Assembly (NCBI RefSeq): GCF_030816855.1
Contig: NZ_JAUSYK010000001.1
Span: 2,170,001-2,234,000 of the forward strand
Source: Arthrobacter sp. B3I4
GTDB lineage: Bacteria > Actinomycetota > Actinomycetes > Actinomycetales > Micrococcaceae
Direction of reading: 5' to 3'
Length of the DNA stretch: 64,000 nt
Shown: in pieces, positions 13,817 through 60,122 of the stretch
Position numbering within the stretch: the first letter of the stretch is position 1
Layout of the letters: every line of letters starts with the position of its first letter
The notes under the pieces: generated by a model
Told to the model about the DNA's origin: nothing
What the model saw: only the letters and a program-made list of their open reading frames with translations
The model's database searches: none
Position numbers and translations under genes: made by a program

Positions 13817-14213
13817 GGATGGGTTGACCAGGCGGCCGCGCGTCACGCAAGTGGCTCGAGGAACGTCCGGGCTCCGCAGGGCAGGGTGGTGGGTAACGCC
13901 CACTCGGGGTAACCCGCAGGCCAGTGCCACAGAGAATAGACCGCCTGCACCGGGACCGTGTCCGCACGGTGCTGGTGGCAGGTAAGGGTGAAACGGTGGT
14001 GTAAGAGACCACCAGCTTCCCGGGTGACCGGGAAGGCTAGGTAAACCCCACCCGGAGCAAGGCCAGACAGGACACATTTGAGGGCTGCCCGCCCGAGTGT
14101 CCGGGTAGGCCGCTGGAGGGCGTCGGCAACGGCGTCCGTAGATGGATGGCCGCTACTCCCGTGCCGGTAACAGCGCGGGAGCACAGAACCCGGCGTATCG
14201 GTCAACCCATCCC
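13817..14213 (+). ncRNA. rnpB: RNase P RNA (type A)
   Basis: The ribozyme that matures tRNA 5' ends. The P1 stem forms between ggatgggttgacc (13817-13829) and ggtcaacccatcc (14200-14212). The conserved 5' block gaggaacgtccgggctcc and the 3' block acagaacccggcgta are both present, with the intervening P-helices. A -10-like tagaat lies at 13804. The 3' 30 nt are inside the prophage attachment core, so the 3' strand of P1 seen here is in attL and is retained intact. Confidence 0.95.
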
Positions 14214-14218
14214 ACCAA
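14184..14218 (+). repeat. attL core, 35 bp
   Basis: It begins cagaacccggcg and ends cccatcccaccaa, identical over 35 bp to 60052-60086. The bases on each side differ between the copies (a and a here, t and c at attR), so the core length is exact. It covers the rnpB 3' end, including the 3' strand of P1. Confidence 0.96.
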
Positions 14219-14326
14219 AGGGCGAGTAATCGCCGTGATTCCGGGCAAGAACGGCCCCTTGGGTGCCTGGCGGGCGGCTCGTTAGGGTCTATTCGATGGT
14301 GCTCAATTGCCTTGTGGTGGCCCCTT

Positions 14327-14346
14327 TTGCCCACGATTTGCCCATG
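14327..14346 (+). promoter_or_regulatory. Candidate integrase arm-type site (left arm)
   Basis: Two TTGCCCA heptamers lie 11 bp apart, about one helical turn. The same 20-bp pattern occurs at 59996-60015 with one difference. The two lie on opposite sides of the core in the reconstructed attP, as arm-type sites of tyrosine integrases do. Assignment is by pattern only. Confidence 0.5.
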
Positions 14347-14441
14347 GGATTCAGCCCTGAAGAAGCCCCGGTCGCCGGTTTCACCAGCGGGCGGTCGGCA
14401 GCTAAGCAGAGGACTGGCGGGGGGCATGGGACACTGTCTGC

Positions 14442-14720
14442 GTGGACATTGTGGTTTTTCTTGAGGCGCGCATCGCTGAGGAAGAAGCACGCCTGCTCGG
14501 TGCCCAGGACAGCGACGCACGTCTTGCGGCCTGCATGATGGCTGAGTGCGCCCAGAAGCGGGCGATCCTGGAGGACTGGAAACGGGGCGCGGCAAACAGC
14601 TCGCATGATCCGCTTTCCATCGCCCGTCGATCGATGCTGGTTGTTCTTGCGGCTAGCTACAAGAGCCACCCCGACTACTCACGGAACTGGCATGACGCAG
14701 GCGGAGGTTCCTCACCTTGA
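14442..14720 (+). CDS. DUF6221 family phage protein
   Basis: A 92-residue protein starting at GTG 14442. The order MDIVVFLEARIAEEEARL, then KRAILEDW, then VVLAASYKSHPDY, then NWHD resembles DUF6221 proteins, which are common in actinobacterial phages and genomes and have no known role. It is the only + strand gene at the left end and faces the minus-strand late operon. rnpB transcription could read into it. Confidence 0.7.
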   Translation: MDIVVFLEARIAEEEARLLGAQDSDARLAACMMAECAQKRAILEDWKRGAANSSHDPLSIARRSMLVVLAASYKSHPDYSRNWHDAGGGSSP

Positions 14721-14730
14721 AGGGAAACCC

Positions 14731-14757
14731 CGCCAGGGTTACTCGCTGACGGGGTCT
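14731..14757 (+). terminator. Weak stem-loop after the DUF6221 gene
   Basis: accccg at 14731-14736 pairs with cggggt about 15 nt later, giving a six-bp stem. No T-run follows. It may help end the DUF6221 transcript. Confidence 0.35.
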
Positions 14758-14829
14758 CCAATGCCTAGATGCCCTTTGCTAAACAACCGGGTCACTTTCG
14801 AGTCTACGCCTGATGTTGATGCTTCAAGT

Positions 14830-15186
14830 TCACGCGGGCAGGAACCCAGGCAGCCGGTCTCCCCACCGGACGTGTCGGAGGTTAGCGGGGCAGCGGTGGT
14901 ATTCCCAGATGTCCCATTCGGAGGCGGTGACGCGCCTGACGCTGTCCGAGGGTAGCCATGCGTGGCGCGGACGGTAGTCGTCATCTTCCCAGCGGACGAG
15001 AATGTGGGACTGGGTCCAGCGCTCGGCCCTGGCGTAGACGTCGAGGGTTCCGCCGCCAACCAGGGCGAGCGTCGCGACGACCTTGGGCTGCTTCCCGTAT
15101 TCCCACGTGTGGGTGGTCCCCGGTTCCCCGGGGTCGGGCGTGAGGCAGCCATAGGTAACGCTATTGAGCGTGAAGGCGAGGGGCAT
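14830..15186 (-). CDS. Hypothetical phage protein
   Basis: A 118-residue protein starting MPLAFTLNSVTYGC. It is rich in Trp and Arg (WTQSHILVRWEDDDYRPRHA) and in beta-prone segments, with no domain recognised. The ORF stays open upstream to TTG 15249, but ATG 15186 is the more natural start. It lies beyond two hairpins that should end the lysis operon, so it probably has its own promoter. It could be a lysogenic conversion gene. Confidence 0.55.
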   Translation of the reverse strand: MPLAFTLNSVTYGCLTPDPGEPGTTHTWEYGKQPKVVATLALVGGGTLDVYARAERWTQSHILVRWEDDDYRPRHAWLPSDSVRRVTASEWDIWEYHRCPANLRHVRWGDRLPGFLPA

Positions 15187-15260
15187 TAGACCATAATTGC
15201 ACGCCGGTGGGCCGGTGTTACGGGTCTTACGGCCCGTGGGCACGGTCAAACTGAAACAGA

Positions 15261-20946: not shown

Positions 20947-22386
20947 TTAGACGCCCGAAGGGCTCTTCAATGTGTCGAGGTAGGTCTTCCCTGACAACGC
21001 GGTCTGCGCCTGCTGGTAGGTGCCCCAGAGCCCCTTGACGTCGCCGTAGGTCCACAACGGGACGAGGACGTTCATCGTGGGGGCCGCCACGAGGTCGCCC
21101 ACCAACTGCCAGCGGATCAGGCTCCCGCCCCACGCCTCATCGACGGGCAGTTCCGTGGGCTTGCCCGCGGCGAGGTAGCACAGGCCAGGCAACGCTGCGG
21201 ACCACCCTGGGAGTGGCCGCACGAGCACTAGCGGGGCCTGCTTGAGAAGGTTCCTCAGGTTGGCCGCGTGCTGCGCGGCGCGTGTGGACATCGACATATC
21301 GACGCCCGCTGCCGACATGCGCTGACCGAGCAACGCCACCGGGTCGGGGCTGCCCAGGACTTGCATGATGGACATGTCAGCTGCATACTCCAGCTGCTTG
21401 ACGGCAGTGTCCCGAAGGTACGCCTGCCCGTCGGGGCCGAACTCACCAAAGACGGGCACTGAACTGCCGGGGACGAGCGGATCTTGGATGCAGCCGGAGA
21501 CGCTGTCCACCCGGGTTGTCTGCTGGGGTGCCGCTACTTGGGCGTTGATCCCGGCAGTCACCTCGATCTCGTAGCTGACCAGCCGGCCTAGCGGCGCCTC
21601 GTAGTCGATGATTGCGTCAGCACTGACCATGGACCGCTTGCGGGCGCCTCGCACTGCTTGTCGCTTGCCGTCGGCCGTCCGCCAGATGGTTACGGTGTTG
21701 GCCGTCGGGGTGAGATCCGTTACGGTGATTTCCACCCGCGGGGTGGGGTCGAACGTGGGCTTAGCCACCAGCGCCAGGGCCGGGGTGTACAGCTTGGCGG
21801 TGCTGGTGCTGGCGTTGGTGGCGCCCGACCAGGCGTACATGGTCGATGCCGCGTTCACGAACGAGCCATCAAAGTACGGGCCAGCGGTTGCCGCCGTCTC
21901 AATGAGGACTGCTTCGCCGTCGAGCCAGTCGTTGACGGCCCAGTTCGTGCCGCCCGTGGTCGCAGAAACAGTCAGAACCACACGATCGCTCGCGGCCCCC
22001 GACGCCCCCGTCACAGACAGTCGTGTCCACGTATTCGCAGCAAGAACCACAGGAGCAGAGATAGCGTTGTTGACGTACACCATTCCCGAGGTGTAGTAGT
22101 CCGCAGTGAGCTTCAAGGTCTGCGCCTTGCTGCTGCGCGCCCATATTTGATGTGAATACAAGGTTGACGCGGCAAGCCCCGTCTGGGTGTACGTCAGACC
22201 TCCACTGACAGCCGTGGTGGCAACGGACCAGGTCACCCGCGGGTAGCCCGGGATGCCCTGGTAGCCCGCACCCCCGTTCCAGGCAAGGGCAGCCGTGCCG
22301 CCCGTGCCCGCCACCGCAGCGTAGTTAGCCGCTGTCGTCCCCGCGCTGGGGTTAGTGGCCAGGTTGGTTCTCGTTGTGATGCTCAT
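20947..22386 (-). CDS. Minor tail protein with N-terminal carbohydrate-binding-like domain
   Basis: A 479-residue protein. The first 190 residues begin TNLATNPSAG and carry TGLAASTLYSHQIWARSSK and WLDGEAVLIET, the layout of CBM4/9-like domains found on phage tail tips. The remaining part is beta-rich (PRVEITVTDLTPTANTVTIW) and helical, typical of distal tail proteins. It follows the tape measure gene, with ATG overlapping its stop. It may contact host wall sugars. Confidence 0.7.
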   Translation of the reverse strand: MSITTRTNLATNPSAGTTAANYAAVAGTGGTAALAWNGGAGYQGIPGYPRVTWSVATTAVSGGLTYTQTGLAASTLYSHQIWARSSKAQTLKLTADYYTSGMVYVNNAISAPVVLAANTWTRLSVTGASGAASDRVVLTVSATTGGTNWAVNDWLDGEAVLIETAATAGPYFDGSFVNAASTMYAWSGATNASTSTAKLYTPALALVAKPTFDPTPRVEITVTDLTPTANTVTIWRTADGKRQAVRGARKRSMVSADAIIDYEAPLGRLVSYEIEVTAGINAQVAAPQQTTRVDSVSGCIQDPLVPGSSVPVFGEFGPDGQAYLRDTAVKQLEYAADMSIMQVLGSPDPVALLGQRMSAAGVDMSMSTRAAQHAANLRNLLKQAPLVLVRPLPGWSAALPGLCYLAAGKPTELPVDEAWGGSLIRWQLVGDLVAAPTMNVLVPLWTYGDVKGLWGTYQQAQTALSGKTYLDTLKSPSGV

Positions 22387-25300
22387 ACCGAGCTCCCCCT
22401 TGCTATGTCACGGCCGGCGGCGCCTACGGCGGCTCCGGCCTCCTGTCGGGCAACGGACTGCACCACGCCTCGTACCTGTTCCCCGGTAAAGGGGTTGGTC
22501 ACCACGACCGTGAGGCCCTCGAGCGTCACCGTCGGGGAGATGCCGGTGTTGTTCACCAGTACCCGGGCTGCACTCATGCGGCCGATAGCACCGCCCTCAG
22601 CGAACCGTGGCACCTGCCCCGCCTGCAGCTGCGCCCGGAACCGGTAGACGGCCTGTTGGCCGCCCATCTTCTGCACGTCACCGGCATCGAACATGTGCTC
22701 ACCGCTCGAGGCTGCGATCAGTACTTCATCGCTGGTGCTGGTGCCGGGTCCCACGATGGCGCCGCCGGAAGCGTAGGCTTCCCGCCGGCCGTCGTGGCTG
22801 GTGCCCTGCCCGCTGTTGGCCCCCGAGTCGGAGCGCACGGTCTCGATGAACGTTGTCTCGTGGTGGTTGACGTAGGTGTTGACCGTCTTGCCGTCGATCT
22901 CACCCAGCGCGGCCTTAGTGTTCTCTGCCATGGTTTTGGCAGCAGATGACATCCAGGACTCAATGCTGACCCCTGGTGGAACTTTCAGGATGTCGCGGGC
23001 AAGGTCGATGGCGGCCTGCCCCGTGATCCCGAACTGCCCGGCACCGGCTATCAGGTCGTTGTAGGTGTCGTTCAGGTTGCCCTGCAGGGCCTCCTGAGAC
23101 TCGCCGTTCTTGGCGTTGGCCTGCACCACTGCCATTCCCGACCCGGCGATGGCGTCCAGGGCCGCCTGGTTGGCACGACCCTTTTCTGTGTGGATATCAA
23201 GGCTGGTGCCGTTCTTGGTGATGGACTCACTGACTGCGTCAATGGCTTCCTGGTAGTTACGGGCCGCGTCACGGGCCGACAAGTTCAGCAGGCCCGCGTT
23301 GAGCAGTGCGTCCGCGAACTTGACCAGGTCCCCGGCCGTGCCGTCCGCGTTGACCCCAATCTCGGCCAGCGCGTCGGAGAGTTCCTTGCTCATAGGTGCA
23401 GCCTTGCCGCTGGCGTCACCTGCGGCACCGATGCCCCCGGCCGCCTTGTCACCGCCTGCAGCGGCGGCCTCCATAGCAGCGGGGGTCTTACCCATCATCC
23501 AGTTCAGCAGCTCGGTGTCTGTGACGGTCTTCCCGGCCGCGTGGGCCACGGACAGCAGCGCATCCTTATACTGCGGGAAACGCTTGGCGGTGTCCTCGAT
23601 CTCGACGCCCTGCGCCTTGGCGCTGTCCGCGATGGCCTTGAAGCCCTTGGCGGCCATCTCAGTGTGGCCGCTGCTGGCCGCCCCGGCGATGGCCTGGTCG
23701 GACTTCTTGACCGCGTCGGCGATCTTGGACATGCCGTTGTCAATACCCAGCACCGTTGCGCCGAAGCTGGCTGTGGCGTCATTGAAGTCCTGGTGTAGCA
23801 GGTGCTTCATAGCGTCACCAGCGTTGTTGATCTGGCCTACGAGCTTGTCCCCGGTGCCGAACTCGATCTTCTTGAAGACCTCATCCATGGAGCCGGACTG
23901 CTTACCCAGGCCGATCAGGCTGTTGGTGAACGCCTCAACGCCCTGGGTGGCGGGCTGCGTGGCGTTGTAGATGCCCTTGACTGCCTCGAACGCGATGACC
24001 GCGCCCAGGGCCACGCCTGCGCCCTTGGCGATGCCGCCGAACATGGCGGGGATGCGGCTGCCTGCGCTGTTCAGTGTGGCGAACGCTGCCCGCGTGGCGA
24101 CGATCTTGGGGGTGAGCGTGAGCAGGGCCCCGCCCGCCAGAGCAGCCGCCCCGACCACCCCGGTGAGGATAACCACTGCGGACTGCACGGGGGCGGGCAG
24201 GCTGCCGAACGTCTGCGCCAGGCCGGACACCGACTCGGCCACACCCTGGACCACGGGCAGTATCGCGGCCCCAGCGTCGATAGCTGCGTCCTTGATGTTG
24301 TTCCAGGCGATCTTGACCTTGGACTCGGTGGTCTCGTACCGCTTGGTAGCTTCCGCCACCAGGGCGGTGTTCTCCTGCCAGGACGTGTTGCCAAGCTTCA
24401 GGCTGTCGCTGAGCAAGTCCCCGCTGGCGGCCAGGGACAGCATGACCTGGGTTTCCTCAGTGCCTTTGAGCCCCATATCTTTCATGGTCTGGACGACGTT
24501 GCCGCCCTCGTTCTTGACCCGGTTCAGGCCCTTGTCCACCATGTCCAGCGCCGCCACAGGGGAGTCCGCAAACTTCTTAGCAAACTCGTCGGCGCTGACG
24601 CCGGCCGTCTTGGCGAACGCGGCCAGCTTGGGGCCGCCCTCCTGGATGGCGGAGTACATCTTGAGCAGCACGCGGGTGGTGACGCCACCACCCAATTCCG
24701 CCTTGACGCCCATGGACGCCAGCGTGTTGGACAGCGCCAGGACCTCGACCTCGCTGGCGCCTACCGTGGCGCCTGCGCCAGCGATTCGCTGGGCCATGCT
24801 GAGAATCTCAGCTTCCGTGCTGGCGCCGGCGTTACCAAGGGCCACGAGGGTAGCGCCGAAGCGCTCGACGCCGACGCTGCCCTCACGCTTCATGGTGCCC
24901 ATCACGTTGCTGATCTGGGCGATGTTGGTGGCTGCTTCTTCCGCGGTGAGGTTGGTGCTTACGCCCAGGTCGATCATGGTCTTGGTGAAGCCCACCACGT
25001 CTTTTCGGGCGACACCCAGTTGCCCGGCCGCCTCGGCCACGCCAGCGATCTCGGTGTGGGTGCTGGGCAGGGTCTTGGCCAAGCCCCGCAGGCTCGACTC
25101 CAGGTCCCGCATCTCGTCCGGGGTGCCGTTTACCGTCTTGGTGACTCCAGCCCAGGCGGACTCCCAGTCCATAGCAGCCTTGGCACTGGCACCCAGTGCC
25201 GCCATGGATACCGTGCCGAACGCCATCATGGTCTTGCCGGCTTTGTCCATGGCGTCGGCGTTGTCGGAGATGGACCTGCGGCTGTTGACGGCCTGGCGGG

Positions 25301-25394
25301 CTACGTTGTCGGTAGCCTGTGCCGCACGGCCCATCCCAGCGATGTAGCTGGCAACTTCCGCCTCTAGGCGGACAATAACGGAACGTGCGGCCAA
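22383..25394 (-). CDS. Tail tape measure protein
   Basis: A 1003-residue protein that sets tail length and passes into the cell during injection. The N-terminus (VIVRLEAEVASYIAGMGRAA) and the TP901-like block with AAGQLGVARKDVVGFTKTM are typical. Hydrophobic segments lie near residue 400 (SAVVILTGVVGAAALAGGAL) and near residue 450. It is the longest gene of the prophage and directly follows the G/GT chaperones. By the usual rule of about 0.15 nm per residue the tail would be near 150 nm. Confidence 0.95.
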   Translation of the reverse strand: MAARSVIVRLEAEVASYIAGMGRAAQATDNVARQAVNSRRSISDNADAMDKAGKTMMAFGTVSMAALGASAKAAMDWESAWAGVTKTVNGTPDEMRDLESSLRGLAKTLPSTHTEIAGVAEAAGQLGVARKDVVGFTKTMIDLGVSTNLTAEEAATNIAQISNVMGTMKREGSVGVERFGATLVALGNAGASTEAEILSMAQRIAGAGATVGASEVEVLALSNTLASMGVKAELGGGVTTRVLLKMYSAIQEGGPKLAAFAKTAGVSADEFAKKFADSPVAALDMVDKGLNRVKNEGGNVVQTMKDMGLKGTEETQVMLSLAASGDLLSDSLKLGNTSWQENTALVAEATKRYETTESKVKIAWNNIKDAAIDAGAAILPVVQGVAESVSGLAQTFGSLPAPVQSAVVILTGVVGAAALAGGALLTLTPKIVATRAAFATLNSAGSRIPAMFGGIAKGAGVALGAVIAFEAVKGIYNATQPATQGVEAFTNSLIGLGKQSGSMDEVFKKIEFGTGDKLVGQINNAGDAMKHLLHQDFNDATASFGATVLGIDNGMSKIADAVKKSDQAIAGAASSGHTEMAAKGFKAIADSAKAQGVEIEDTAKRFPQYKDALLSVAHAAGKTVTDTELLNWMMGKTPAAMEAAAAGGDKAAGGIGAAGDASGKAAPMSKELSDALAEIGVNADGTAGDLVKFADALLNAGLLNLSARDAARNYQEAIDAVSESITKNGTSLDIHTEKGRANQAALDAIAGSGMAVVQANAKNGESQEALQGNLNDTYNDLIAGAGQFGITGQAAIDLARDILKVPPGVSIESWMSSAAKTMAENTKAALGEIDGKTVNTYVNHHETTFIETVRSDSGANSGQGTSHDGRREAYASGGAIVGPGTSTSDEVLIAASSGEHMFDAGDVQKMGGQQAVYRFRAQLQAGQVPRFAEGGAIGRMSAARVLVNNTGISPTVTLEGLTVVVTNPFTGEQVRGVVQSVARQEAGAAVGAAGRDIARGSSV

Positions 25395-32078: not shown

Positions 32079-32089
32079 TGATGGTCTCC

Positions 32090-33578: not shown

Positions 33579-33680
33579 TTACCTGTAGAGCGGGGTTACT
33601 TCCTCGTGGCACCAGCGGCACCGCCAGGTCCGGGACCATGGCCACCACTTGCCCTTATGCCCAAGCAAACGGCAGATCAC
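33579..33680 (-). CDS. Zinc-knuckle microprotein between portal and MuF genes
   Basis: A 33-residue ORF, GTG 33680 to TAA, whose start overlaps the portal stop as GTGA. It reads CRLLGHKGKWWPWS, then WRCRWCHEE. Cys3, His8, Cys21 and Cys24 can hold one zinc. The 4-nt overlap with the portal gene and the motif argue for translation. The portal-MuF location suggests a head-assembly link, but function is unknown. Confidence 0.6.
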   Translation of the reverse strand: MICRLLGHKGKWWPWSRTWRCRWCHEEVTPLYR

Positions 33681-46020: not shown

Positions 46021-48555
46021 CTAAACGGCGGCCTTGAAGGTGTTGTCTTCCACTGTGGCCAGGTCGAACAGGGTGGGCATGTCCTGCTTCCGTTCTTCGG
46101 CTTCGAGGTATTTGACGGAGTCGAGGAAGTATCCGGGGTTCAGTTCGCTCGACCGGCCCTGCCGGCCGAGCTTCAGGGCCCGGAGCGGGACGGTTCCGAG
46201 GCCGCCGAAGGGGTCGAACACGAGGTCTCCGGGGTTGGTGTACCGCTCGATGAGCCGGTCGACGATGTCGAACTGGAGCGGGCAGACGTGCATCTGGACG
46301 TTGCGGCGTTTCTGCTCGCCGTTGAGGGTGAGCATCCGGTTCACGTCGTGCCAGACATCCGGCGCCCAGGACCCGGGCATGAGGGACATGAACGTGGCCG
46401 GGAGCGCGCCCTTGCCCTGCAGCGCCTCGCCAATCCGGACGTGGGTTTCGTAGTCGTAGACCTCGGTCAGGGTCTGCTCCGTGAACAGCCTAGAGCGCTG
46501 CTCGACGGGCAGGCCTGCGAGCTCGTCAGGGGTGAGGTGCCGGTTGCCGCTGGAGCGCCAGTTCGCGTGTGCGTCGACCTGCCACCGTGCCAGCGAGTAG
46601 TCGTCAACGGACTTCACCACCCGGTCGTCCGCGTACCCCTTCGACCGGTCTGTCTGGGGCTTGTGGAAGAGCAGGATGTACTCGGGGGAGCCGACGCCCA
46701 TCTTCGTGCCGTCCTTCCGCATCTCCGTGTAGCCGAGGCGGTAGGTCTGGTTGTTTTCGCGGACGACGTCGGTGACGACGGTGATCATCCCCATGTAGTC
46801 GAAGCCGTGCTTTACCCCGTGGAAGAGCGCCTCGGCATGGAACGGGGAGACCGTGGGGATGCCAGCGCCGGTGACGTTGCCGAAGTTGATCCGGTCCTTG
46901 ACGTGGCAGGCGTAGATCCGGCCAGGCTTGAGGACCTTCAGCAGCTGCGGGGTGAGGAAGTCCATCTGCGCCCAGAAGTGGTCGTTGTCGTCGGTGTGCC
47001 CGAAGTCGCTGTAGTCGGGCGTGTACTCGTAGTGGTTGGAGAACGGGATGGATGTGACGATCATGTCGACACTGTTCTCGGCCATGTGGTGGGTGGTTTC
47101 GTCCACGCAGTCGTTGTTGGCCAGGGTCCAGCCTTCGCCGAAAGTTTCGATGCGTTCGACGCCCATGGTGCGGGTCAGTGCTTCGGTGATCGAGTTCCGG
47201 GAGAGGCCGTACTGCTTGATGATGTCGGTCATGGTGGAGGTCAGCTCTCTGTGTTGCGCCCATTTGTCTTTCAGGGCGGTGACGACTTCGCCTTCGGATT
47301 CGGCGTGGATGAGGTGCGCGGTGCAGGGGCGGGTCTGGCCGAAGCGTTGGATGCGGTGGCAGGCCTGGATGGTGTCGTTGAACTTGTAGGTGACGCCGGC
47401 GAAGACGGCGACGTTGGCCTGCTGCAGGTTCAGGCCCTGGCCGAGCATCACAGGCTTCCCGATGAGGGCGTAGGTCTCCTTGTCCCGCCACTGGTCGAGG
47501 CGCCGCTCGGCCTCATCGGTGTCGAGCGAGCCGTGGACACTGGAGTAGCTGATGCCGGCGGCTTTGAGGGCCGCCTCGATCGCGTCCTGTTCGGCGTTGA
47601 GGTCGCACCAGAGGATGATCTGGCCGTCGTCGCTCGCATGGTGCGCGGCGACCATTTCCATGAGCTTCGCGATCCGGGCGGGGAGGCTGTCACGTTTCTC
47701 CTTGGCCACCCCCTGCAGGTCTTTGGCGCCGCCGCGGAAGAGCCGCGCCTGCCCGTCGCGATCGACTCCGGCCGTCGTGTGGTCCACGGGGACCTCTACC
47801 CAGTCGATGGCCAGCGGCGGCAGATCGTAGCCTTCGTCGGAGTAGCCGAGGTCGGAGGGCTTTTGCAGGAAGATCGACCACGAGTTCAGCCACATGAAGA
47901 ACTCTTCCCGTTTGTGCGGGTAAAGCGTGAGGTTGTTCGCCTGCGTGGAGTCGCGCTGGAACCACCGGGTGAGCGCCTGGCCGGTGTCCATGACGCCGAG
48001 GAACCCGGCGTAGTGGATGAGCTCCTTGTACCGGTTGGGTGACGGGGTCGCAGTGGCCACGAACCGGTAGGCGACGTCGGCGAAGAGGCTGAGGAAGGTC
48101 TGGTAGGTCTTGGAGCCGAAGCTGCGCAACACCCCGGCCTCGTCGAGGCTGACCGCGGTGAACTCGTTGACGTCGAGTTTCCCGTCGCGGACGGTCTCGT
48201 AGTTGGTGATGTAGATGCCGTCGCCGTCGATGTCCTCAGCCCGGCGGATGAAGCGCACGTCGATGTCGAGTTTGCGGCCGTCGCGGATGAACTCGCCGCG
48301 GACCCCGAGGGGCGCGACGATCAGGGCCCGGCCGCCGGCGTGCGCGAGGGTGAGCCGCAGCGTCTCCAGCTGCATTATGGACTTGCCCATGCCGAACGCG
48401 GCGAAGATCGCCCGCCGCCCGCCTTCGACCGCCCAGCGGACAATGTCCCGCTGGTGGTCTTTCAGGATGGGGTTAACGGCCGTCGCCGGGACAGGCTGGC
48501 CATAGTCACGTTCGAAGTCGGCCTTCGCCTTCAAGAACTCGGTGTACTCGCTCAT
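46021..48555 (-). CDS. Fused SNF2-type helicase and DNA methyltransferase
   Basis: An 844-residue two-enzyme protein. Residues 1-460 are a SNF2/superfamily 2 helicase: P-loop FGMGKS (54-59), Walker B DEAG (138-141), motif III region ATATPSPNRY and motif VI CHRIQRFGQTR. Residues 480-844 are an N4-cytosine or N6-adenine methylase: motif IV TSIPFSNHYEY and motif I FDPFGGLGT, in the beta-class order (IV before I). It may methylate DNA while translocating, for anti-restriction. ATG 48555 overlaps the C5 methylase stop. Target site unknown. Confidence 0.88.
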   Translation of the reverse strand: MSEYTEFLKAKADFERDYGQPVPATAVNPILKDHQRDIVRWAVEGGRRAIFAAFGMGKSIMQLETLRLTLAHAGGRALIVAPLGVRGEFIRDGRKLDIDVRFIRRAEDIDGDGIYITNYETVRDGKLDVNEFTAVSLDEAGVLRSFGSKTYQTFLSLFADVAYRFVATATPSPNRYKELIHYAGFLGVMDTGQALTRWFQRDSTQANNLTLYPHKREEFFMWLNSWSIFLQKPSDLGYSDEGYDLPPLAIDWVEVPVDHTTAGVDRDGQARLFRGGAKDLQGVAKEKRDSLPARIAKLMEMVAAHHASDDGQIILWCDLNAEQDAIEAALKAAGISYSSVHGSLDTDEAERRLDQWRDKETYALIGKPVMLGQGLNLQQANVAVFAGVTYKFNDTIQACHRIQRFGQTRPCTAHLIHAESEGEVVTALKDKWAQHRELTSTMTDIIKQYGLSRNSITEALTRTMGVERIETFGEGWTLANNDCVDETTHHMAENSVDMIVTSIPFSNHYEYTPDYSDFGHTDDNDHFWAQMDFLTPQLLKVLKPGRIYACHVKDRINFGNVTGAGIPTVSPFHAEALFHGVKHGFDYMGMITVVTDVVRENNQTYRLGYTEMRKDGTKMGVGSPEYILLFHKPQTDRSKGYADDRVVKSVDDYSLARWQVDAHANWRSSGNRHLTPDELAGLPVEQRSRLFTEQTLTEVYDYETHVRIGEALQGKGALPATFMSLMPGSWAPDVWHDVNRMLTLNGEQKRRNVQMHVCPLQFDIVDRLIERYTNPGDLVFDPFGGLGTVPLRALKLGRQGRSSELNPGYFLDSVKYLEAEERKQDMPTLFDLATVEDNTFKAAV

Positions 48556-50102
48556 GAGGCCACCAGCGTTTCCGCCATGCAGGCTACGAGGTCACGGGCG
48601 GCCGGGGGTGTGACGGCGTTGCCGGCCATCTTGACCTGTTCGCGTTTGTTGCCGAGCATGATGTATTCCTTCGGGAAGGCCATGCCTGCCTTGATTTCGT
48701 GGGGTTCGAGCATCCGGAACTCGCAGTTGTCGATGTCGGGGACTTTCCATTCGGCCAGGCCGTGGTGGAGCCCGTTGGCGGCGAACGTGTCGAGCGGCTG
48801 CCCGACGTCCTTGGGTGCGTTGGTGCCGCGGAGGGTGGTGATCATCGCGAACCGGTCATGCGTGGTGATGGTCGGGATTGCCTTGGAGGTGGGGTGCATT
48901 TGACCGTTGCCGTAGTACTCCATGAGCATGTGGTCCCGTGGCGCCGTGAGGACCCCGGTCTCGTTGCGGGTGGTCTGGGTCCGCATCGCCTCGTGAACGG
49001 CCTGAGCCTGTTTCCCTTCGCGGCCCTCCACGGGAATGAGCAGCGACTCGTGCAGGCCGCCGGCCACGAGGGTCCGGAGGGGATCGCCGACGGTGGCCGT
49101 GCGGGTGTTGTCCGATCCGCTCAGGTTGTTCACGATGAGTGGGGTCAGGAGCCCCCGCGTGTAGCTCGTCGTCTGCGTGGCGAACGCTTCACGATCGACC
49201 GGTGTCAGGATCTGCGAGCCTCGCACGGAGTCGATGGCCAGGCGCTGGTTGCCGTACTTAGCGAGCCCGGCCCGGATCCGCGCCAGAGTCTTGTCGGCGA
49301 GGGGGCGCTTTCGGTCCCCGATGCGCTCGCCGCGCAGTGACCAGTCGATCGCGTGGGAGGCCGGCAGCCAGCCCGGCTCGACAACCTGGTTACGGCAGGC
49401 GGCCTTCGGGCAGCGGTAGACGTACTGGGCCCGGTAGCGTCCCCACTGCTCCGTCTTCTTGAACACCTGCAGCGCGTCCACGATCTCGTCGCAGCTCGAG
49501 CAGTAGGCCTTGGGCCGGAAGTACTTTTCCACGTCCGGCGCCTTGTTGCCTTTGAGCCAGAAGAGCACGTACATGCGGTCCCTGGACTGGGGTGCGGGGA
49601 GGCCGCCGTGCTGGGCGTGCATGGAGTTGAGGTACTGGATGCGGTGTTCGTAGCCGAGTGACTTCATGGCCATCAGCCAGGCGTCGAACATGACCCATTT
49701 GGCGGCGTCTACAACGTTCTCGGTGATGATGGCCCGGTACTTGTGGACTTCGGCGAACCGGGGGACATCCCACATGGTGGCGCGGGATCGGTCGGCGGCC
49801 TCGTCGGGCAGGGCGTCGCCGAACAGGTCGGGCTGGTTGGTGATGCGCTTCCGGCCCTTGGCCACGGAGTGGTTGGTGCATTCGGGGGAGGCCCAGAGGA
49901 TGTCTGAGTGGCCGATGTAGCGGGGGTCGGTTTCTTTGATGTCGGCCTGGACGTGGATGGTGTCCGGGTGGTTCGCGTTGTGGGACTCCAGTGCCTTGTC
50001 CCAGTGGTTGAGGGCGGTCTTGACGGTGATCCCTGGGAGCGACGTCGCTCCGGTGGAACTGCCGCCGGCGCCGCAGAACATGTCAGTCATGGTGAGGCTC
50101 AT
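48552..50102 (-). CDS. C5-cytosine DNA methyltransferase with zinc insert
   Basis: A 516-residue enzyme. Motif I is FCGAGGSSTG (9-18); the catalytic Cys75 lies in ASPECTNHS, so motif IV reads PEC rather than PPC. Motif VI is ENV (128-130), motif VIII QSRDR (172-176), and motif X GNAVTPPAARDL at the end. A zinc-like insert (C201, C204, C231, C236) lies where target recognition begins. Likely protects phage DNA. Coupled to both neighbours by 4-nt overlaps. Confidence 0.92.
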   Translation of the reverse strand: MSLTMTDMFCGAGGSSTGATSLPGITVKTALNHWDKALESHNANHPDTIHVQADIKETDPRYIGHSDILWASPECTNHSVAKGRKRITNQPDLFGDALPDEAADRSRATMWDVPRFAEVHKYRAIITENVVDAAKWVMFDAWLMAMKSLGYEHRIQYLNSMHAQHGGLPAPQSRDRMYVLFWLKGNKAPDVEKYFRPKAYCSSCDEIVDALQVFKKTEQWGRYRAQYVYRCPKAACRNQVVEPGWLPASHAIDWSLRGERIGDRKRPLADKTLARIRAGLAKYGNQRLAIDSVRGSQILTPVDREAFATQTTSYTRGLLTPLIVNNLSGSDNTRTATVGDPLRTLVAGGLHESLLIPVEGREGKQAQAVHEAMRTQTTRNETGVLTAPRDHMLMEYYGNGQMHPTSKAIPTITTHDRFAMITTLRGTNAPKDVGQPLDTFAANGLHHGLAEWKVPDIDNCEFRMLEPHEIKAGMAFPKEYIMLGNKREQVKMAGNAVTPPAARDLVACMAETLVAS

Positions 50103-52053: not shown

Positions 52054-52578
52054 TTAGTAGGGTGGTTCGTCGTCGGCGCCGTTGGCCCATCCGCCGGCGG
52101 TGCTCGCTCCGGGTGTGGCCCAGGCGTCCGGCGAGTTATTGCCGGTCGAGCCCTGATTGCCGCCCCAGCCGCCACCGGAGCTCTGGTTACCGCCGCCCCC
52201 GGCAGCATTCTGCCGCTGCGTCCGGTTCACCTTGGCGTTCGCGTACCGCAGGGACGGGCCGATCTCGTCGACCTCCAGTTCGATCACGGTCCGCTTCTCG
52301 CCCTCCTTAGTTTCGTAGGAGCGGGACTTCAACCGGCCAGACACGATCACGCGCATGCCCTTCGTGAGGGACTCGGCCACGTTCTCAGCCGCCTCCCGCC
52401 ATACCGAGTAACGAAGGAACAGGGTCTCCCCGTCGACAAACTCGTTCTTCTGCCGGTCGAACGTCCGCGGCGTCGAAGCGATAGTGCCGTTTGCGACCGC
52501 CGACCCTGAAGGGGTGAAGCGAAGCTCGGGATCGTTCGTGAGATTGCCGATCACAGTGATCGTGGTTTCGCCCGCCAT
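52054..52578 (-). CDS. ssb: Single-stranded DNA-binding protein
   Basis: A 174-residue SSB. The OB fold begins [20 protein letters not shown], with [20 protein letters not shown] further on. A Gly/Asn-rich linker follows, and the acidic tip DDEPPY closely matches the DDEPPF end of bacterial SSBs, so it may engage host partners. ATG 52578 overlaps the RecT stop. It covers ssDNA during recombination and replication. Confidence 0.94.
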
Positions 52579-53534
52579 CAGTTCGACGCCCCTGCAAGCC
52601 ACTGCGCGTCGGCGTCCAGCTCGCCCTGCTCATCGACCGGCGGGTTCTCGGCCTCTTCGATGAACCGTGAGGCTTCAGCCTTCGTCAGGTCCTTGGACGT
52701 TACGATGGCTCGGCCCGTGAAGTTGGAGAGCTCCGCCAGACCGGATTCGCGGTCGCTGGCGCCGAGCTTGCCGAGGATGACGTGGATCTTGGTGAGTTGG
52801 GCAGTGGTGGCCAGCGGCTCGGCGGGCTGCTCCGACTCAGGCTCATCCTGCGGGGCCTCGTGGACTACGTTGGGGAGGTCCGGTGTTGGCGCAGCTGCTC
52901 GCTTGATGGTGCGCTTCGCCTTGGGCGCCTCAGTCTCGGCCGGCGCCTGTTCGCCGAGGTCGTCGAGCTCGACCTCTTCGACCGACGTCGCCGCGATACC
53001 GGTGAGCACGTCGGGGGCGATGACACGGCAGATCTCGGCCTGGCACTTCGCGGTGAGCATGCCGATGGGGTCAGTCTGGTACTTCTTGTTCGAGGTGTAC
53101 CCGGCCTTCTGTGCGCGGGCGATGGTCCACTCCACGCGGGTGAAGGTGGTCTCGCCCTTGCGGCGGCCTTCGTAAATGACGCGCTGCTCGGTCGCTTCGA
53201 TCCGGCGGATCGTGTGCCCTGCCTGCATGACGAGGGCGGCCATGGTGCGGGCGTACATCGAGGGGCGTCCGGAGACGACAAAGATGTTCGCCAGCGCGTT
53301 CATCGGGTCGAGGCCCAGAGACTTGCCAGCGAGGATCGCCGCGGCCGCGGCTTCCGGCTTCCCACGGAACGATGCGGGCACGAACTCGGTGCTGCACAGC
53401 GCGGTGCCGAGCTGATGGGCGGCGCCGAGCTCCTGCGCCCACTCCATGAGTGACACGGTCGCGGGGGTCGGCGCGAGGCCGGCGGCGTTGAATGCGGCGA
53501 CGGGGGCCGCCTGGGGGATTGCTACTTCGCTCAT
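52578..53534 (-). CDS. RecT-family single-strand annealing protein
   Basis: A 318-residue recombinase. The RecT core (residues 40-190) is clear: [20 protein letters not shown], then [20 protein letters not shown] and [19 protein letters not shown]. The C-terminus is an acidic linker and a small helical domain ([20 protein letters not shown]). It works with the RecB-like exonuclease (two genes upstream) and SSB in phage recombination. Start and stop overlaps couple it to its neighbours. Confidence 0.92.
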
Positions 53535-53752
53535 GCTTCGATCGCTTTCTGGTAGCGGCTGCGGATGCCAGCCTGCATGGTTGTGAGTGTTTCGATGAGG
53601 AGTTCAACGGTGGCGGGGTTGAGGAGGATCTCGTGGTCGCCGCTGGGGTGGCGCTTGCGGTCCCAGGTATCGAGGGCGATGCTTTCGTCCTCGTAGTAGA
53701 GGGAGAGGCCGCGCTCGTGTTCGTGGTCGACGTACTCGAAGGTGGCCATCAC
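53531..53752 (-). CDS. Hypothetical phage protein
   Basis: A 73-residue protein starting at GTG 53752 or ATG 53749 (MATFEYVDHEHERGLSLYYE). It has LNPATVELLIETLTTMQAGI and is acidic. It sits between the exonuclease and RecT genes with 4-nt overlaps on both sides. It may be part of the recombination module. Confidence 0.65.
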   Translation of the reverse strand: MMATFEYVDHEHERGLSLYYEDESIALDTWDRKRHPSGDHEILLNPATVELLIETLTTMQAGIRSRYQKAIEA

Positions 53753-54597
53753 GCTGCAACCTGGGCGGCTGGCGTGACCGGGGCGCCGACGATGGCTTCC
53801 CGGAGCTTGGTGGTCTTGTGGGTGTAGGCCGCGGCCAGGAACATCGCGTAGTGCCCCTTCATCTCGTCCCGGTTCTTCGCGAGCGGGTACAGGGTGGTGC
53901 CGAGCGGGGCGTCCCCGTACCGGGCGTTCTCGCCGGCCCGGTCCATGGGCGTCACGTGGGCGACGTAGGTCGCCACGATCTCCGGCATGGGGTGCTCATT
54001 GCCGTCCTCGTCCATGTAGAACTCGGCGAGCGAGTAAGCCCCGCATTGCAGCCCGGTTTCGCCGTAGACGAACTTGGAGGTCTTGAGGTCGATCATGACC
54101 GGCATACCGTCGTTCAGCAGGGGGGAGGTGGCGATCATGTCGAACTTCCCCGCGTACCAGTCCTTGCGGGACGCGACCGGCCGCTCCATGAGGAGCGGGG
54201 TGATCTGGAAGCGGTCAAGGAAGTCCGCGTAGCCCTCGACGTACCCGGCCAGCTCATCCGGGACGCCTTCGACGGTGCCGGTGGTGGCCAGGGCTTCGGC
54301 GAAGTCGTGCACCGCGGTGCCGCGAACGCCTGCGTCGTCGCGGACCTTCGCCGGGATGGCTGCCAGTTCCCGGACCATGTCGACGTCGTCCCGGCTGCGG
54401 AGCGAGTCGATCTCCGCCGGGTTCGCTTCGACGTACTCGGCAACGGTTTTCCCGGCCCAGTAGACGAGTGCCGGCTTCGGGATGCCGCCATTCAGGATGG
54501 TGGTAACTCCGGTGACGGGGAGCCCGTCGAGCTTGTACCGGTGCCCGTTGTGGGTGAAGGTCAACCCCTTCGGCGGAATTTTGGTCTTGGTGGTCAT
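53749..54597 (-). CDS. RecB/Cas4-like PD-(D/E)XK exonuclease
   Basis: A 282-residue nuclease. PVTGVTTILNGGIPKPALVY and GVRGTAVHDFAEAL start the fold. The catalytic set is Asp in AGKFDMIA, then IDLKTSK (Asp-x-Lys) and GLQCGAYSLAEF. This is the usual 5'-3' exonuclease partner of RecT in actinophages. ATG 54597 is coupled to the upstream small gene. Together with RecT and SSB it forms a phage recombination set. Confidence 0.88.
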   Translation of the reverse strand: MTTKTKIPPKGLTFTHNGHRYKLDGLPVTGVTTILNGGIPKPALVYWAGKTVAEYVEANPAEIDSLRSRDDVDMVRELAAIPAKVRDDAGVRGTAVHDFAEALATTGTVEGVPDELAGYVEGYADFLDRFQITPLLMERPVASRKDWYAGKFDMIATSPLLNDGMPVMIDLKTSKFVYGETGLQCGAYSLAEFYMDEDGNEHPMPEIVATYVAHVTPMDRAGENARYGDAPLGTTLYPLAKNRDEMKGHYAMFLAAAYTHKTTKLREAIVGAPVTPAAQVAA

Positions 54598-54764
54598 CGT
54601 GTCAGCTCCAATTTCTGGGCCCGGGCGTCGATCCCGGGGCGGGCGGGGTGCGTGTAGTCGGGGGTGGCGTGCTGCGGGGTTGGGTCTTCGTGGCCGGGGC
54701 AGAAGCAGACGTCCAGGCGGCAGGTCTCGCAGCGGTAGTGGCCGCCGCAATAGCAGACCGTCAT
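54594..54764 (-). CDS. Cys/His-rich zinc-binding microprotein
   Basis: A 56-residue ORF from ATG 54764. It reads MTVCYCGGHYRCETC, then LDVCFCPGHEDPTP. Six Cys and two His in 25 residues suggest two zinc sites. ATG overlaps the upstream stop, and its own stop overlaps the exonuclease start. Function unknown. Confidence 0.65.
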   Translation of the reverse strand: MTVCYCGGHYRCETCRLDVCFCPGHEDPTPQHATPDYTHPARPGIDARAQKLELTR

Positions 54765-56715: not shown

Positions 56716-56952
56716 AAAGACCTCCCCCCGGAGTCGTGTTCTTGGCCGGCGTACTGAGCAGCGCCGGTCCTTGAGTTTTCCTTGGTACATGTACATCTTT
56801 CATCCTTTCGCATTTGCTGACAAGTGAAGCGTGCCGCACTTGTCGCTTACTTGTCAACAACACGCGCTTGTTTGCCCCGCAAATACAGGGATGCAGGGGA
56901 TTTACTTGTATTTGGAAAACTTTCGATTGTTGGCACAAGTAGTACAACCGGT
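56716..56952. promoter_or_regulatory. Immunity switch region with inverted repeats
   Basis: A 237-bp divergent region. It contains GACAAGT/ACTTGTC (56819-56844), the palindrome GTACATGTAC (56785-56794), a fifth copy of the dyad core with one mismatch (56856-56872), and CAAATACA/TGTATTTG (56880-56914). A minus-strand -35-like ttgaca overlaps the dyad copy. These are probable operators for the repressor and Cro. Confidence 0.65.
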
Positions 56953-57441
56953 ATGAGGATGAAGCCCATGGACAGCACACCAAAGACGTTGAAGGAAATC
57001 GCCCAGGCGGCTTCCGACAACAACGGGGGCGCTAGGGGGCGTCAGCTGGGCCGAATAGCAGAACGAAAAGGTCTCACACTGTCCTACACGACAGTCGACA
57101 AGATCATTGCCGGCACGTACACGTCACGTCCGAGCCGCAAGACCTTGGAGGCGCTTTCGCGACTATCAGGAGTACCAGTGGCACAGGTTTATGAAGCAGC
57201 CAACGAAGTACCGCCGCAAGCCCGGCTTGCCGACCAGCTTCCCCCGGACGTGGACACGCTATCGCCCGAACAGCGGAAAGTGATCATCGACATAGCCCGC
57301 GTGTTCCTCAAAGAGAACCGCACCATCCGGCGCCTCGAACTCGAGGTCGCCAGCACCGAGACCAACCAGGACGACTACCGGCTCGCAGCCCGCGAAGCCG
57401 ACGAACACATCGGGCACGACCAACTGCCAGAAGATACGTAG
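56953..57441 (+). CDS. Putative immunity repressor (HTH protein)
   Basis: A 162-residue protein. The HTH region is GRQLGRIAERKGLTLSYTTV, then DKIIAGTYTSRPSRKTLEAL, similar to phage repressors. The C-terminal half is acidic (VDTLSPEQRKVIIDIARVFL). Possible starts are ATG 56953, 56959 and 56968. It is the first gene of the + strand lysogeny operon and probably maintains lysogeny by binding the dyads upstream and elsewhere. Confidence 0.75.
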   Translation: MRMKPMDSTPKTLKEIAQAASDNNGGARGRQLGRIAERKGLTLSYTTVDKIIAGTYTSRPSRKTLEALSRLSGVPVAQVYEAANEVPPQARLADQLPPDVDTLSPEQRKVIIDIARVFLKENRTIRRLELEVASTETNQDDYRLAAREADEHIGHDQLPEDT

Positions 57442-57871: not shown

Positions 57872-58234
57872 ATGTCAGAAGGTAAGGCGCTGCAAAGCCT
57901 CATCAAAAACCTCCGCGGTGAGCGGAACAACGTAGAGTTGTCCCGTGACTGCGGGGGCATCCCCACCCAGTCCCGGCTCCAGCAGATCTCCACCGCTCCC
58001 ATCAAGCTCTTCCCGGACCCGGAAACCATCCTGGGCCTGGCCCGCGGCCTCAACGTCACCGTCGGCGAAGTGGTCGGCGCCTGCGCCAAGGACCTGGGTC
58101 TCAACATGGGTGGCCCGGACGAATCGGCCCTCGTGCTGGCCGGCGCCCGCGACCTCCCGGATTCCGCGCAAAACCTGCTGGTCGGCATGTCCCGGGAACT
58201 GCAGTCGGCCTACCGTTCCAAAGCCTCACGCTAA
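57872..58234 (+). CDS. HTH-like regulator
   Basis: A 120-residue protein. ALQSLIKNLRGERNNVELSR, then GIPTQSRLQQIST and DPETILGLARGLNVTVGEVV, looks like an XRE-type HTH. It lies directly upstream of the ImmA/IrrE-like gene; such pairs typically encode a repressor and its protease. So it, rather than the 56953 product, may be the protease substrate. Confidence 0.62.
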   Translation: MSEGKALQSLIKNLRGERNNVELSRDCGGIPTQSRLQQISTAPIKLFPDPETILGLARGLNVTVGEVVGACAKDLGLNMGGPDESALVLAGARDLPDSAQNLLVGMSRELQSAYRSKASR

Positions 58235-58267
58235 AACTGTCAGACACCCGCTGTAAGTTCTTGCCCC

Positions 58268-58679
58268 ATGGGGTTCGAACGGAAAGCGGAGGAGATGGGC
58301 GTCCGCATCGTATCCGGATACCCGCCGCATGGCTGGTGGGGAAGCTACGACCCGGACCACCACCGCATCACCCTCAGGCCCGACCTCGGCTACGTGCAGC
58401 TGCGCTCGACGGCCTGGCACGAACTCGGGCACGCGCACTACCGCCACATCGGTTGCACCCCTAAGCAGGAGCAGCAGGCCCGCGCATGGGCCGCCCCGCC
58501 ACATCATCCGCCCGGCCGCCTTCATCGACGCTGCCCGCATCACGGACGACCTCGTGTCCATCGCGCACCGGCTCCACGTCATGCCCGACGATGTGCGCGC
58601 CTTCGAACAATCCCTCACTCTGGAGGAACTCATCTACTTCCGAAAGGAGATCAATGGACACGCTGACTGGCCGCGATAA
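58268..58679 (+). pseudogene. ImmA/IrrE-like metallopeptidase, frameshifted
   Basis: The first 75 codons encode the zinc site: WHELGHAHYRH (HEXXH at 51-55). The expected continuation (HIIRPAAFIDAARITDDLVS, then HRLHVMPDDVRAFEQSL) is in another frame. The change is at the C4 run 58494-58497; one base fewer restores one frame of about 136 residues (length 3n+1). ImmA-type proteases cleave phage or mobile-element repressors. If the frameshift is real, induction through this route may be lost. Confidence 0.8.
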
Positions 58680-58899
58680 AGGTCTGATCCGGCTCGCGGC
58701 CGCACCATTCAAATACCCGGCCGCCCGGGAACGGCAGGCCCGCGAAGAATACGCCCTGTCCGGCACGCGGTTCTGGCAGGAAGTGAACCGGATCCTTGAC
58801 CTGCCGGATGCGTACGCCTGGAACCCGCAGGCCGTCGGCAGGCTCAAGGACCAGCGCACGCAGACCCGGCAGCGACCTCCTGTGCGGAGGCTGGTCTGA
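58654..58899 (+). CDS. DUF3263 family protein
   Basis: An 81-residue protein starting at ATG 58654 with gaaaggag upstream. The pattern LTGRDKGLIRLAAAPFKYPA, then EYALSGTRFWQEVNRILDLP and YAWNPQAVGRLKDQRTQTRQ, matches DUF3263, a small DNA-binding-like family of actinobacteria and phages. Its stop codon is directly followed by the integrase TTG. It may be an integration accessory factor. Confidence 0.78.
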   Translation: MDTLTGRDKGLIRLAAAPFKYPAARERQAREEYALSGTRFWQEVNRILDLPDAYAWNPQAVGRLKDQRTQTRQRPPVRRLV

Positions 58900-60039
58900 T
58901 TGGCCAGGGTAGAAGACCTCTGGGTCCGGAAAGACAGAACCCGCACACCCGTCTACGGCAAGGGCATGCGCTACCGGGCCGAGTGGACCCCTCCGGGGGA
59001 GAACAAGCACCGCAAGAGCTTCGCCACGAAGGCGGCGGCCATGGACTTCCTCGCCGAGCAGGTCACCGGGATCAACCGTGGCACCTACGTGGCGAAGCGC
59101 CGCAAGGTCCTGCTCGCCGATTACGCCGACACGTGGCAGAAGAACCAGCTGCATCAGCGCCAATCCTCGCGTGGGCAGATCGCCCCAAAGTTCAAGCACT
59201 ACATTCTGCCCAGCTTCGGGCACCGGGCGCTGGACGCTATCCAACGCGCCGATGTGCAGGAAGCTGTGGGGGAGTGGTCCGCAACGCTGGCCCCGTCCAC
59301 GGTGAAAGTCACGTACGGGTACTTGGCGTCCATGTACAAGGCCGCGGTCCTTGACGGCGTTGTGGCCGTGAGTCCGTGCGTGGGGATCCGGCTGCCAACG
59401 GTGGAGGACGTCGCAGTCGTGCCGTTGCGCACGGAGACGGTGCAGGAGCTGGCTGACAGGATCTGGCGGCCGTACCGGCCCATGGTGGTGTTCTGCGCCG
59501 CTACCGGCCTGCGATCCTCCGAGCTGCGCGGTCTGACCTGGGACCGGGTCGATTTTGACGCATCGATGATCAGTGTGGACAGGCAGCTCGTGGGGAACAA
59601 TTCGTCCGCCCCGGAGTGGGGTCCGTTGAAAACGAAGTCCAGTCGGCGCCGAATCCATGTTGGCGCCCAGACCATGCAGCTGCTCAAAGATCTCCGGGAA
59701 GGGCCGCAGGGTGCTGGGGACGTCGTGTTTCACTCGTCCGGCAGGGCGATCATGAGGGGCACCGCAGGGGAGGCATGGCGCGACGTACGGAAGAAGGTGG
59801 CGGGTCTGGGTGACGGGTGGCATGAGCTCCGCCACTATCACGCGAGCCAGCTGATCTCCGGGGGCATGTCCGTCGTGGCCGTTGCCCACCGCCTCGGACA
59901 CAAGGATGCGACGGAGACGTTGAAGACCTACGCGCATTTGTGGCCGTCGGATGACACCCGGGCGGCTGCCCTAACGGATGGGCTGATTAGCCTGGTTGCC
60001 CATGATTTGCCCATGACCGGGCCGGAATCCCCACAGTAG
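58900..60039 (+). CDS. int: Tyrosine site-specific integrase
   Basis: A 379-residue phage integrase. The catalytic domain shows the first Arg in ATGLRSSELRGLTW, the His and second Arg in HELRHYHASQLIS, then AHRLGH and the nucleophile Tyr in ETLKTYAHLW. The N-terminal part has arm-binding and core-binding regions (YGKGMRYRAEW, then SATLAPSTVKVTYGYLASMY). Start TTG 58900 abuts the preceding stop. It lies 12 bp from attR and acts on the rnpB core. Confidence 0.95.
   Translation: MARVEDLWVRKDRTRTPVYGKGMRYRAEWTPPGENKHRKSFATKAAAMDFLAEQVTGINRGTYVAKRRKVLLADYADTWQKNQLHQRQSSRGQIAPKFKHYILPSFGHRALDAIQRADVQEAVGEWSATLAPSTVKVTYGYLASMYKAAVLDGVVAVSPCVGIRLPTVEDVAVVPLRTETVQELADRIWRPYRPMVVFCAATGLRSSELRGLTWDRVDFDASMISVDRQLVGNNSSAPEWGPLKTKSSRRRIHVGAQTMQLLKDLREGPQGAGDVVFHSSGRAIMRGTAGEAWRDVRKKVAGLGDGWHELRHYHASQLISGGMSVVAVAHRLGHKDATETLKTYAHLWPSDDTRAAALTDGLISLVAHDLPMTGPESPQ
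59996..60015 (+). promoter_or_regulatory. Candidate integrase arm-type site (right arm)
   Basis: Two TTGCCCA heptamers 11 bp apart, matching 14327-14346 with one change. This copy lies within the last codons of the integrase gene, 37 bp before the attR core. Confidence 0.5.
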
Positions 60040-60051
60040 CGGCGAATTAGT

Positions 60052-60086
60052 CAGAACCCGGCGTATCGGTCAACCCATCCCACCAA
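60052..60086 (+). repeat. attR core, 35 bp
   Basis: Identical to 14184-14218. It marks the right end of the prophage and is the original chromosomal 3' end of rnpB. Confidence 0.96.
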
Positions 60087-60089
60087 CCG

Positions 60090-60122
60090 CAAGAGGCCGG
60101 CACCGACGGTGCCAGCCTCTTG
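60090..60122 (+). terminator. Displaced rnpB downstream hairpin
   Basis: A 15-bp stem with one mismatch (caagaggccggcacc at 60090-60104 with 60108-60122) and a 3-nt loop lies 3 bp after the attR core. Before integration it directly followed rnpB. No T-run follows it, so the strength is uncertain. Confidence 0.6.

Follow-up and report, generated by a model that had tools for sequence, protein, structure and literature searches.

The 3' end of the RNase P RNA gene as the probable attachment site of a TripleJ-like prophage in Arthrobacter sp. B3I4

It is textbook knowledge that tyrosine integrases insert elements at the 3' ends of tRNA and tmRNA genes and that the gene is restored. Here we describe a prophage that appears to have entered the 3' end of another structured RNA gene, rnpB, which encodes the RNA of RNase P. 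The prophage lies within a 64,000-nt stretch of the Arthrobacter sp. B3I4 genome (contig NZ_JAUSYK010000001.1, positions 2,170,001 to 2,234,000), hereafter called the window. As in tRNA and tmRNA systems, the core of the attachment site is the 3' end of an RNA gene and includes one strand of its terminal helix, the gene is restored at the left junction, the integrase gene lies beside the core, and arm-type repeats are present. The target is what sets this locus apart, since RNase P RNA is an essential ribozyme of ~390 nt encoded by a single-copy gene. In the TIGER/Islander survey, 33.8% of genomic islands were assigned to tRNA or tmRNA genes, 43.4% to coding sequences, and 22.8% to intergenic sites, and the portion of its main text available to us mentions neither rnpB nor RNase P (PMC12424338). 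A search of the open-licence literature returned no paper describing rnpB as an attachment site; an earlier mention in the 2020 TIGER paper or the 2002 Williams survey is possible. Habitual integration at rnpB therefore seems to be new, although elements that enter structured RNA genes and restore them are already known.

The prophage comprises 45,833 bp and is bounded by an exact 35-bp direct repeat, whose two copies form the cores of the left and right attachment sites (attL and attR). The features that define the two junctions are as follows.

13820-14213, + strand: rnpB, class A RNase P RNA gene, complete at attL (RF00010, 303.3 bits, model positions 1-367 of 367, E 2.7e-98)
14184-14218, + strand: attL core, 35 bp, made up of the last 30 bases of rnpB, including the 3' strand of the P1 helix, and 5 bp past the Rfam end
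14204-14212, + strand: smallest stretch common to the compared in-genus att pairs, AACCCATCC, a possible crossover segment
14219-60051: prophage between the cores, a tailed phage with a TripleJ-like siphovirus gene set
14327-14346, + strand: P' arm-type tandem repeat, TTGCCCACGATTTGCCCATG
58900-60039, + strand: tyrosine integrase gene (379 amino acids; PF00589, phrog_1), ending 12 bp before the attR core
59996-60015, + strand: P arm-type tandem repeat, TTGCCCATGATTTGCCCATG, within the 3' end of the integrase gene
60052-60086, + strand: attR core, an exact copy of the attL core, without the remainder of rnpB

The core sequence is CAGAACCCGGCGTATCGGTCAACCCATCCCACCAA, and its right end (CACCAA) runs beyond rnpB. 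Ten of the 11 P1 positions are paired at attL, and the core contains the 3' strand of the helix. The window rnpB is the only RF00010 match in the 3.61-Mb genome. We thus found what defines integration with restoration at a structured RNA gene, namely a direct repeat shared by the 3' end of the gene and the opposite end of the element, and a complete gene at one junction. A tRNA or tmRNA target could be dismissed, as the target matches RF00010 and the sole tRNA gene in the window lies at 1126-1201. All remaining exact direct repeats of at least 18 bp are outside the prophage (1556-1700 and 2366-2460); the left end of the window carries tandem repeats of 36 bp (4.9 copies, 1551-1725) and 48 bp (2.1 copies, 2366-2465). 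A sequence-only reading of this DNA had proposed that the prophage uses rnpB as its attachment site, that a 35-bp core including the 3' strand of P1 lies in the rnpB 3' end, and that attL regenerates a complete ribozyme. The exact repeat, the pairing of P1, and the full-length Rfam match bear out the last two of these proposals, and the evidence below favors the first as well.

The window integrase scored 75.6 bits against PF00589 (curated cut-off, 27.1 bits) and gave an E value of 1.1e-60 against phrog_1. Residues R205, H308, R311, H334, and Y344 were invariant in a six-row alignment, corresponding to the R, H-x-x-R, H, and Y that we take to be catalytic. Just inside both cores we found TTGCCCAYNATTTGCCCATG, which consists of two tandem 11-bp units. 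When up to two mismatches were allowed, this repeat occurred at two places in the window, compared to 0.01 expected from shuffled sequences, and the genome as a whole had no further match. One or more TTGCCC units were present at an equal offset from the core in 8 of the 14 rows compared (the window, TripleJ, Kukla, Bi83, AQ5-06, G123, G398, and L054). These 11-bp repeats are putative arm-type sites to which the integrase would bind. The proposed 9-bp minimum for the crossover segment depends on attR mismatches in ISL-72 and G398 only, and, because the integrases of both are damaged, drift is as likely an explanation for the mismatches as a crossover signal.

Two isolated Arthrobacter phages, TripleJ (Triplejayvirus) and Kukla, encode integrases that are 77% identical to that of the window, and in both the integrase gene is followed immediately, on its 3' side, by the first 29 bases of the core. 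This copy is the phage attachment site (attP). Out of 50,697 phage records, three matched at least 80% of the core, all of them TripleJ or Kukla records in which the site is unannotated; a fourth, weaker match was to a Salmonella record, in an RNase P RNA that is annotated there. The arm-type units of the two phages are at the same offsets as in the window, whereas the core flanks differ (CATCCACTCAAA against CATCCCACCAAA) and TripleJ, by our scan, has a hairpin and T-run after the core. When TripleJ was compared with the window prophage, 35 of the 57 genes tested matched (tblastn, E ≤1e-5; 82 annotated). The two gene orders are colinear once a permutation that breaks at attP is allowed for, apart from a single gene (14442-14690), which is out of order. 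Judged by shared proteins and gene order, the window prophage would belong to Triplejayvirus.

An integrase of this kind was present in 11 of 206 genomes of the genus. In ten of the 206 (the window's included), the integrase gene is followed on its 3' side by another rnpB 3' end, although some of these integrases are damaged. The sequence-only reading described rnpB as a much less common target than tRNA and tmRNA genes, but within this lineage it is not a rare one. The distance from the integrase gene to the second rnpB end is usually ≤60 bp, rising to 655 bp in G366 and ~830 bp in G123. Both cores are on one contig in seven of the ten genomes, with start-to-start spacings of 45.9 kb in the window, 46.7 kb in P. 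polychromogenes, 45.3 kb in G342, 45.2 kb in G366, 56.5 kb in G451, 5.9 kb in AQ5-06 (where the integrase has an in-frame stop), and 3.6 kb in G398 (integrase in two pieces). In Bi83, ISL-72 (where the integrase match starts at residue 89), and G123, the cores are on different contigs. The attL and attR cores are identical in eight of ten in-genus elements, with one mismatch in ISL-72 and two in G398; among the 11 elements examined, the att pairs of P. polychromogenes and ISL-72 were read by eye. Full-length rnpB was detected by Rfam in 8/8 other in-genus attL loci vs. 0/8 attR loci.

Two copies of the core were found in 12 of 204 genus genomes, among them the ten with an integrase beside the second rnpB end. 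G464 and G330 have two rnpB 3' ends and no integrase at a threshold of 1e-60; the G330 copies are inverted and 123 kb apart. The islet of Arthrobacter sp. AQ5-06 occupies L101:5281-11184, between its two rnpB cores.

Nine in-genus attL loci (AQ5-06 left out) each had P1 paired at 10 of 11 positions. The helix itself differs between host groups, being GGTCAACC or GGTCGACC among these nine loci, so a phage core that matches the P1 of its host is the rule in the sequences compared. The match may stem from the need for identical overlaps in recombination, from selection on the ribozyme, or from both.

We searched 2.9 million viral contigs for the conserved rnpB 3' end and obtained 47 stretches, ten of which have an integrase-like open reading frame (ORF), recognized by motif, beside them; two of these ten are the TripleJ record and the contig of L054. 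In an integrase tree of 34 rows, 16 of them background rows picked by the analyst, the integrases beside an rnpB end formed two supported groups. Group I, which contains the window integrase, has the integrase gene on the rnpB strand, left of the core. Group II consists of six IMG/VR proteins (L166, L168, L173, L187, L191, and L192) whose genes are on the opposite strand, convergent and right of the core, on the attL side. All six proteins scanned from each group matched PF00589. The groups are neighbors on the tree and may have a single origin followed by losses; the label of rnpB adjacency requires five changes on the tree.

Both arrangements recurred in whole genomes of the order or class. 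Group I geometry was found in G048 and G685 and, by eye, in G727; group II geometry was seen in G996, G880, G850, G760, and G514. These five group II cases were assigned by geometry only, three having been reached with the group II profile and two with the group I profile, and none of them is in the tree. In all four group II-geometry genome loci checked by Rfam (G880, G850, G996, and G760), rnpB is intact. Group II thus resembles the window in having a tyrosine integrase that adjoins the rnpB 3' end and an intact rnpB in the loci tested, and differs in the strand and side of the integrase gene and in forming a separate supported group. The group I profile matched nine of 347 genomes at 1e-80, and the core lies beside the integrase gene in seven of the nine, including G048, whose core has diverged at its left end, and G727, which was read by eye; no core was found beside the integrase genes of G669 and G494. 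The group II profile matched 102 of 394 genomes at 1e-70, with an rnpB 3' end (strict pattern) within 1.5 kb in three of the best 30 loci; most of this wider family seems to target something else. Taken together, these genomes and contigs indicate that rnpB is a recurrent predicted target in Actinomycetia, beyond the genus of the window.

Other loci with rnpB sequences came to light as well. Duplicated rnpB 3' ends are present in other families of the order (L206/L214 in G675, L207/L215/L221 in G615, and L213/L220 in G018); in the examined loci, which are partly at contig ends, we saw no convincing integrase ORF, with one loose-motif ORF at L206. Among eight further IMG/VR loci, seven (L164, L167, L170, L184, L190, L199, and L201; contigs of 20-463 kb) have a full-length class A RNase P RNA amid many tRNA genes, and the eighth, L205, has tRNAs only. 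Such contigs, which are putatively viral, may encode their own RNase P RNA.

To the right of attR, the chromosome continues with three features that bear on the state of the locus before integration.

60087-60125: chromosomal hairpin that followed rnpB before integration, between the convergent rnpB and 48-amino-acid-protein genes (-31.8 kcal/mol, z score -5.8)
60151-60297, - strand: gene for a 48-amino-acid protein, a membrane protein by its look, convergent with rnpB, in the right chromosomal flank
60578-62071, + strand: gap, glyceraldehyde-3-phosphate dehydrogenase gene, the right neighbor of rnpB in many genus loci

Joined across the prophage, the window flanks give the order rnpB, hairpin, convergent small membrane-protein gene. 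Four prophage-free loci from other species (L265, L028, L024, and L030) have this order, with a contiguous rnpB, a similar hairpin, and a convergent gene for a 48-amino-acid membrane protein, indicating that the two window flanks are one locus. The spacer before the hairpin is longer in these four loci than in the joined window, and its length varies. Two other loci, L027 and L003, align well across the joined-flank stretch on the rnpB side only. The sequence-only reading had placed the old hairpin 45.9 kb away from the rnpB end, and the fold was indeed located there. Its expectation that the hairpin follows rnpB in prophage-free relatives held for the four loci above and failed for most of the genus loci compared. 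Twenty prophage-free genus loci had a match in the right flank; three of them (L024, L028, and L030) matched the small-gene region and the other 17 matched only from the gap promoter region onward, so neither the hairpin nor the small gene is a conserved feature of the rnpB locus, and the idea that the hairpin is a conserved rnpB terminator was not supported.

We then compared the sequence that follows rnpB on the phage and host sides, folding the first 65 bases after rnpB or the core and applying a threshold of z ≤-2. This threshold was reached by 5 of 14 phage sides (not including the window), by 3 of 10 host sides at occupied loci (one of them being the window hairpin), and by 4 of the 23 loci taken as prophage-free. 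Judged by fold energy alone, the phage sides are not very distinctive. Under a loose terminator criterion (a hairpin of ≤-9 kcal/mol followed by a T-run within 130 bases), 11/14 phage sides vs. 2/39 loci taken as prophage-free were positive, a count inflated by the T-run of the arm site. With a stricter cut (≤-15 kcal/mol, within 60 bases), the numbers were 6/14 vs. 1/39 (Fisher p 0.0008, for a cut chosen after the list had been seen and for rows that are related). The 39 comparison loci, 24 from the genus and 15 from other genera of the family, are taken as prophage-free rather than each proven to be so; L009 is not among them, and L038 was excluded because G048 is occupied. The six phage sides that passed the stricter cut were those of G342, G366, G451, G398, TripleJ, and L159, with T-runs starting 44-57 bases after the core. 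Several related phages thus seem to bring their own terminator, either for rnpB or for self-shielding.

These data suggest the following course of events. A TripleJ-like temperate siphovirus would integrate at the rnpB 3' end by means of its tyrosine recombinase, the N-terminal domain of which would bind the arm repeats, and strands would be exchanged within the 3' strand of P1, probably at its last bases. Because the host would then give the body of the ribozyme and the phage its final bases, the phage core would have to match the host P1 if rnpB is to survive. In the lysogen, rnpB is whole and has a paired P1 at the left junction, and only the core, followed by the old downstream flank, is left at the right junction. 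The new 3' sequence is probably tolerated, since rnpB in this genus appears to have no conserved strong hairpin right after the gene, and the phage-borne terminator seen in several relatives would also shield the prophage from rnpB transcription.

It might be argued that the repeat is incidental, the prophage having another entry route or boundary and the 35 bp being a chance match or a duplicated RNA fragment; the core is short, and its right end lies past rnpB. Yet the number of 35-bp chance matches expected in the window is ~3e-11 for independent bases, the same core lies beside the integrase gene in the isolated phages and in ten genus genomes, the window's included, and cores flank the 45-57 kb elements of G353/G483, G342, G366, and G451. 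We give this explanation next to no credence; the chance estimate and the recurrence of the core beside an integrase rule it out in practice. The sequence-only reading had also suggested that processing of the rnpB 3' end in the lysogen may depend on phage sequence, a suggestion on which the evidence points both ways. A related proposal is that integration alters rnpB output, the 3' end being left to phage sequence once the hairpin is lost, such that the level or maturation of the RNA differs, possibly as a switch controlled by excision. The strong native hairpin has indeed been exchanged for sequence with no significant fold (z -1.1), and a scan for consensus terminators found none at 13700-15000, on the phage side. 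The same scan, however, found none at 59900-60600, where the native hairpin lies, P1 and the entire Rfam model are intact at the window attL, and 19 of the 23 loci taken as prophage-free miss the z threshold of -2, while only 2 of 39 have even a loose terminator. As prophage-free loci so rarely have a strong fold or terminator, native rnpB maturation seems not to need one, and we consider an effect on rnpB output unlikely. A third account, in which selection maintains only a core that complements P1 and the terminators of the relatives serve phage genes by blocking read-through into the lysogeny region, is a genuine if tentative possibility. The T-run hairpins after the core in the six phage sides named above fit this account; they also sit directly at the rnpB 3' end, so that both roles may hold, and the window phage has no strong terminator.

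Several points weigh against rnpB as the attachment site, or against its generality. The arm motif was not seen in 6 of the 14 rows (G342, G366, G451, G048, L159, and L160), and the integrases of five of these (all but G048) are 46-58% identical to that of the window. The clade I integrase of G384 (locus L146) does not adjoin rnpB, and the group I branch holds three background rows, that of G384 included, and the group II branch two, so not every relative of these integrases need target rnpB. The window attL has no strong terminator, only a weak candidate (-11.9 kcal/mol) ending at the arm site. The prophage-free loci compared were all from other species, none being of the same species. Finally, the case for rnpB as the bacterial attachment site (attB) comes from sequence rather than from observed excision, formation of attP, or repair of attB. 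Given the duplicated core, the intact ribozyme at attL, the adjacent tyrosine integrase, the arm-type repeats inside both ends, the attP of two isolated relatives, the independent lysogens, and the prophage-free relatives, we conclude that the window prophage very probably uses the rnpB 3' end as its attB.

The remainder of the prophage is that of a tailed phage, with the following recognizable genes.

22383-25394: tape measure
29420-30493 and 30861-32255: head genes (head maturation)
33677-35206: portal
35216-36712: terminase
52578-53534: RecT
53749-54750: exonuclease
56824-57441 and 57872-58234: repressor-like genes

At 46021-50102, the prophage also encodes a helicase-like protein with an N6/N4 DNA methyltransferase domain, adjoining a C5 cytosine methyltransferase.

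More broadly, we think it fairly probable that attachment sites at the rnpB 3' end are a recurrent class in Actinomycetia that has been overlooked and that is used by two or more integrase groups with opposite geometries; that the core must complement the P1 of the host, so that ribozyme structure helps to set host range; and that some phages replace the 3' flank with their own terminator. RNase P RNA is essential and here single-copy, and each lysogen is therefore a test of how far the ribozyme tolerates a change of its 3' flank. Because TIGER/Islander sorts sites into tRNA/tmRNA, coding, and intergenic classes, as the available text describes them (PMC12424338), islands at rnpB would presumably be filed as intergenic and their number missed. 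The rnpB 3' end is a conserved landing place and could serve actinobacterial genetics as an integration site, and a lysogen and its cured counterpart would make the formation of the rnpB 3' end in high-GC Gram-positive bacteria directly testable.

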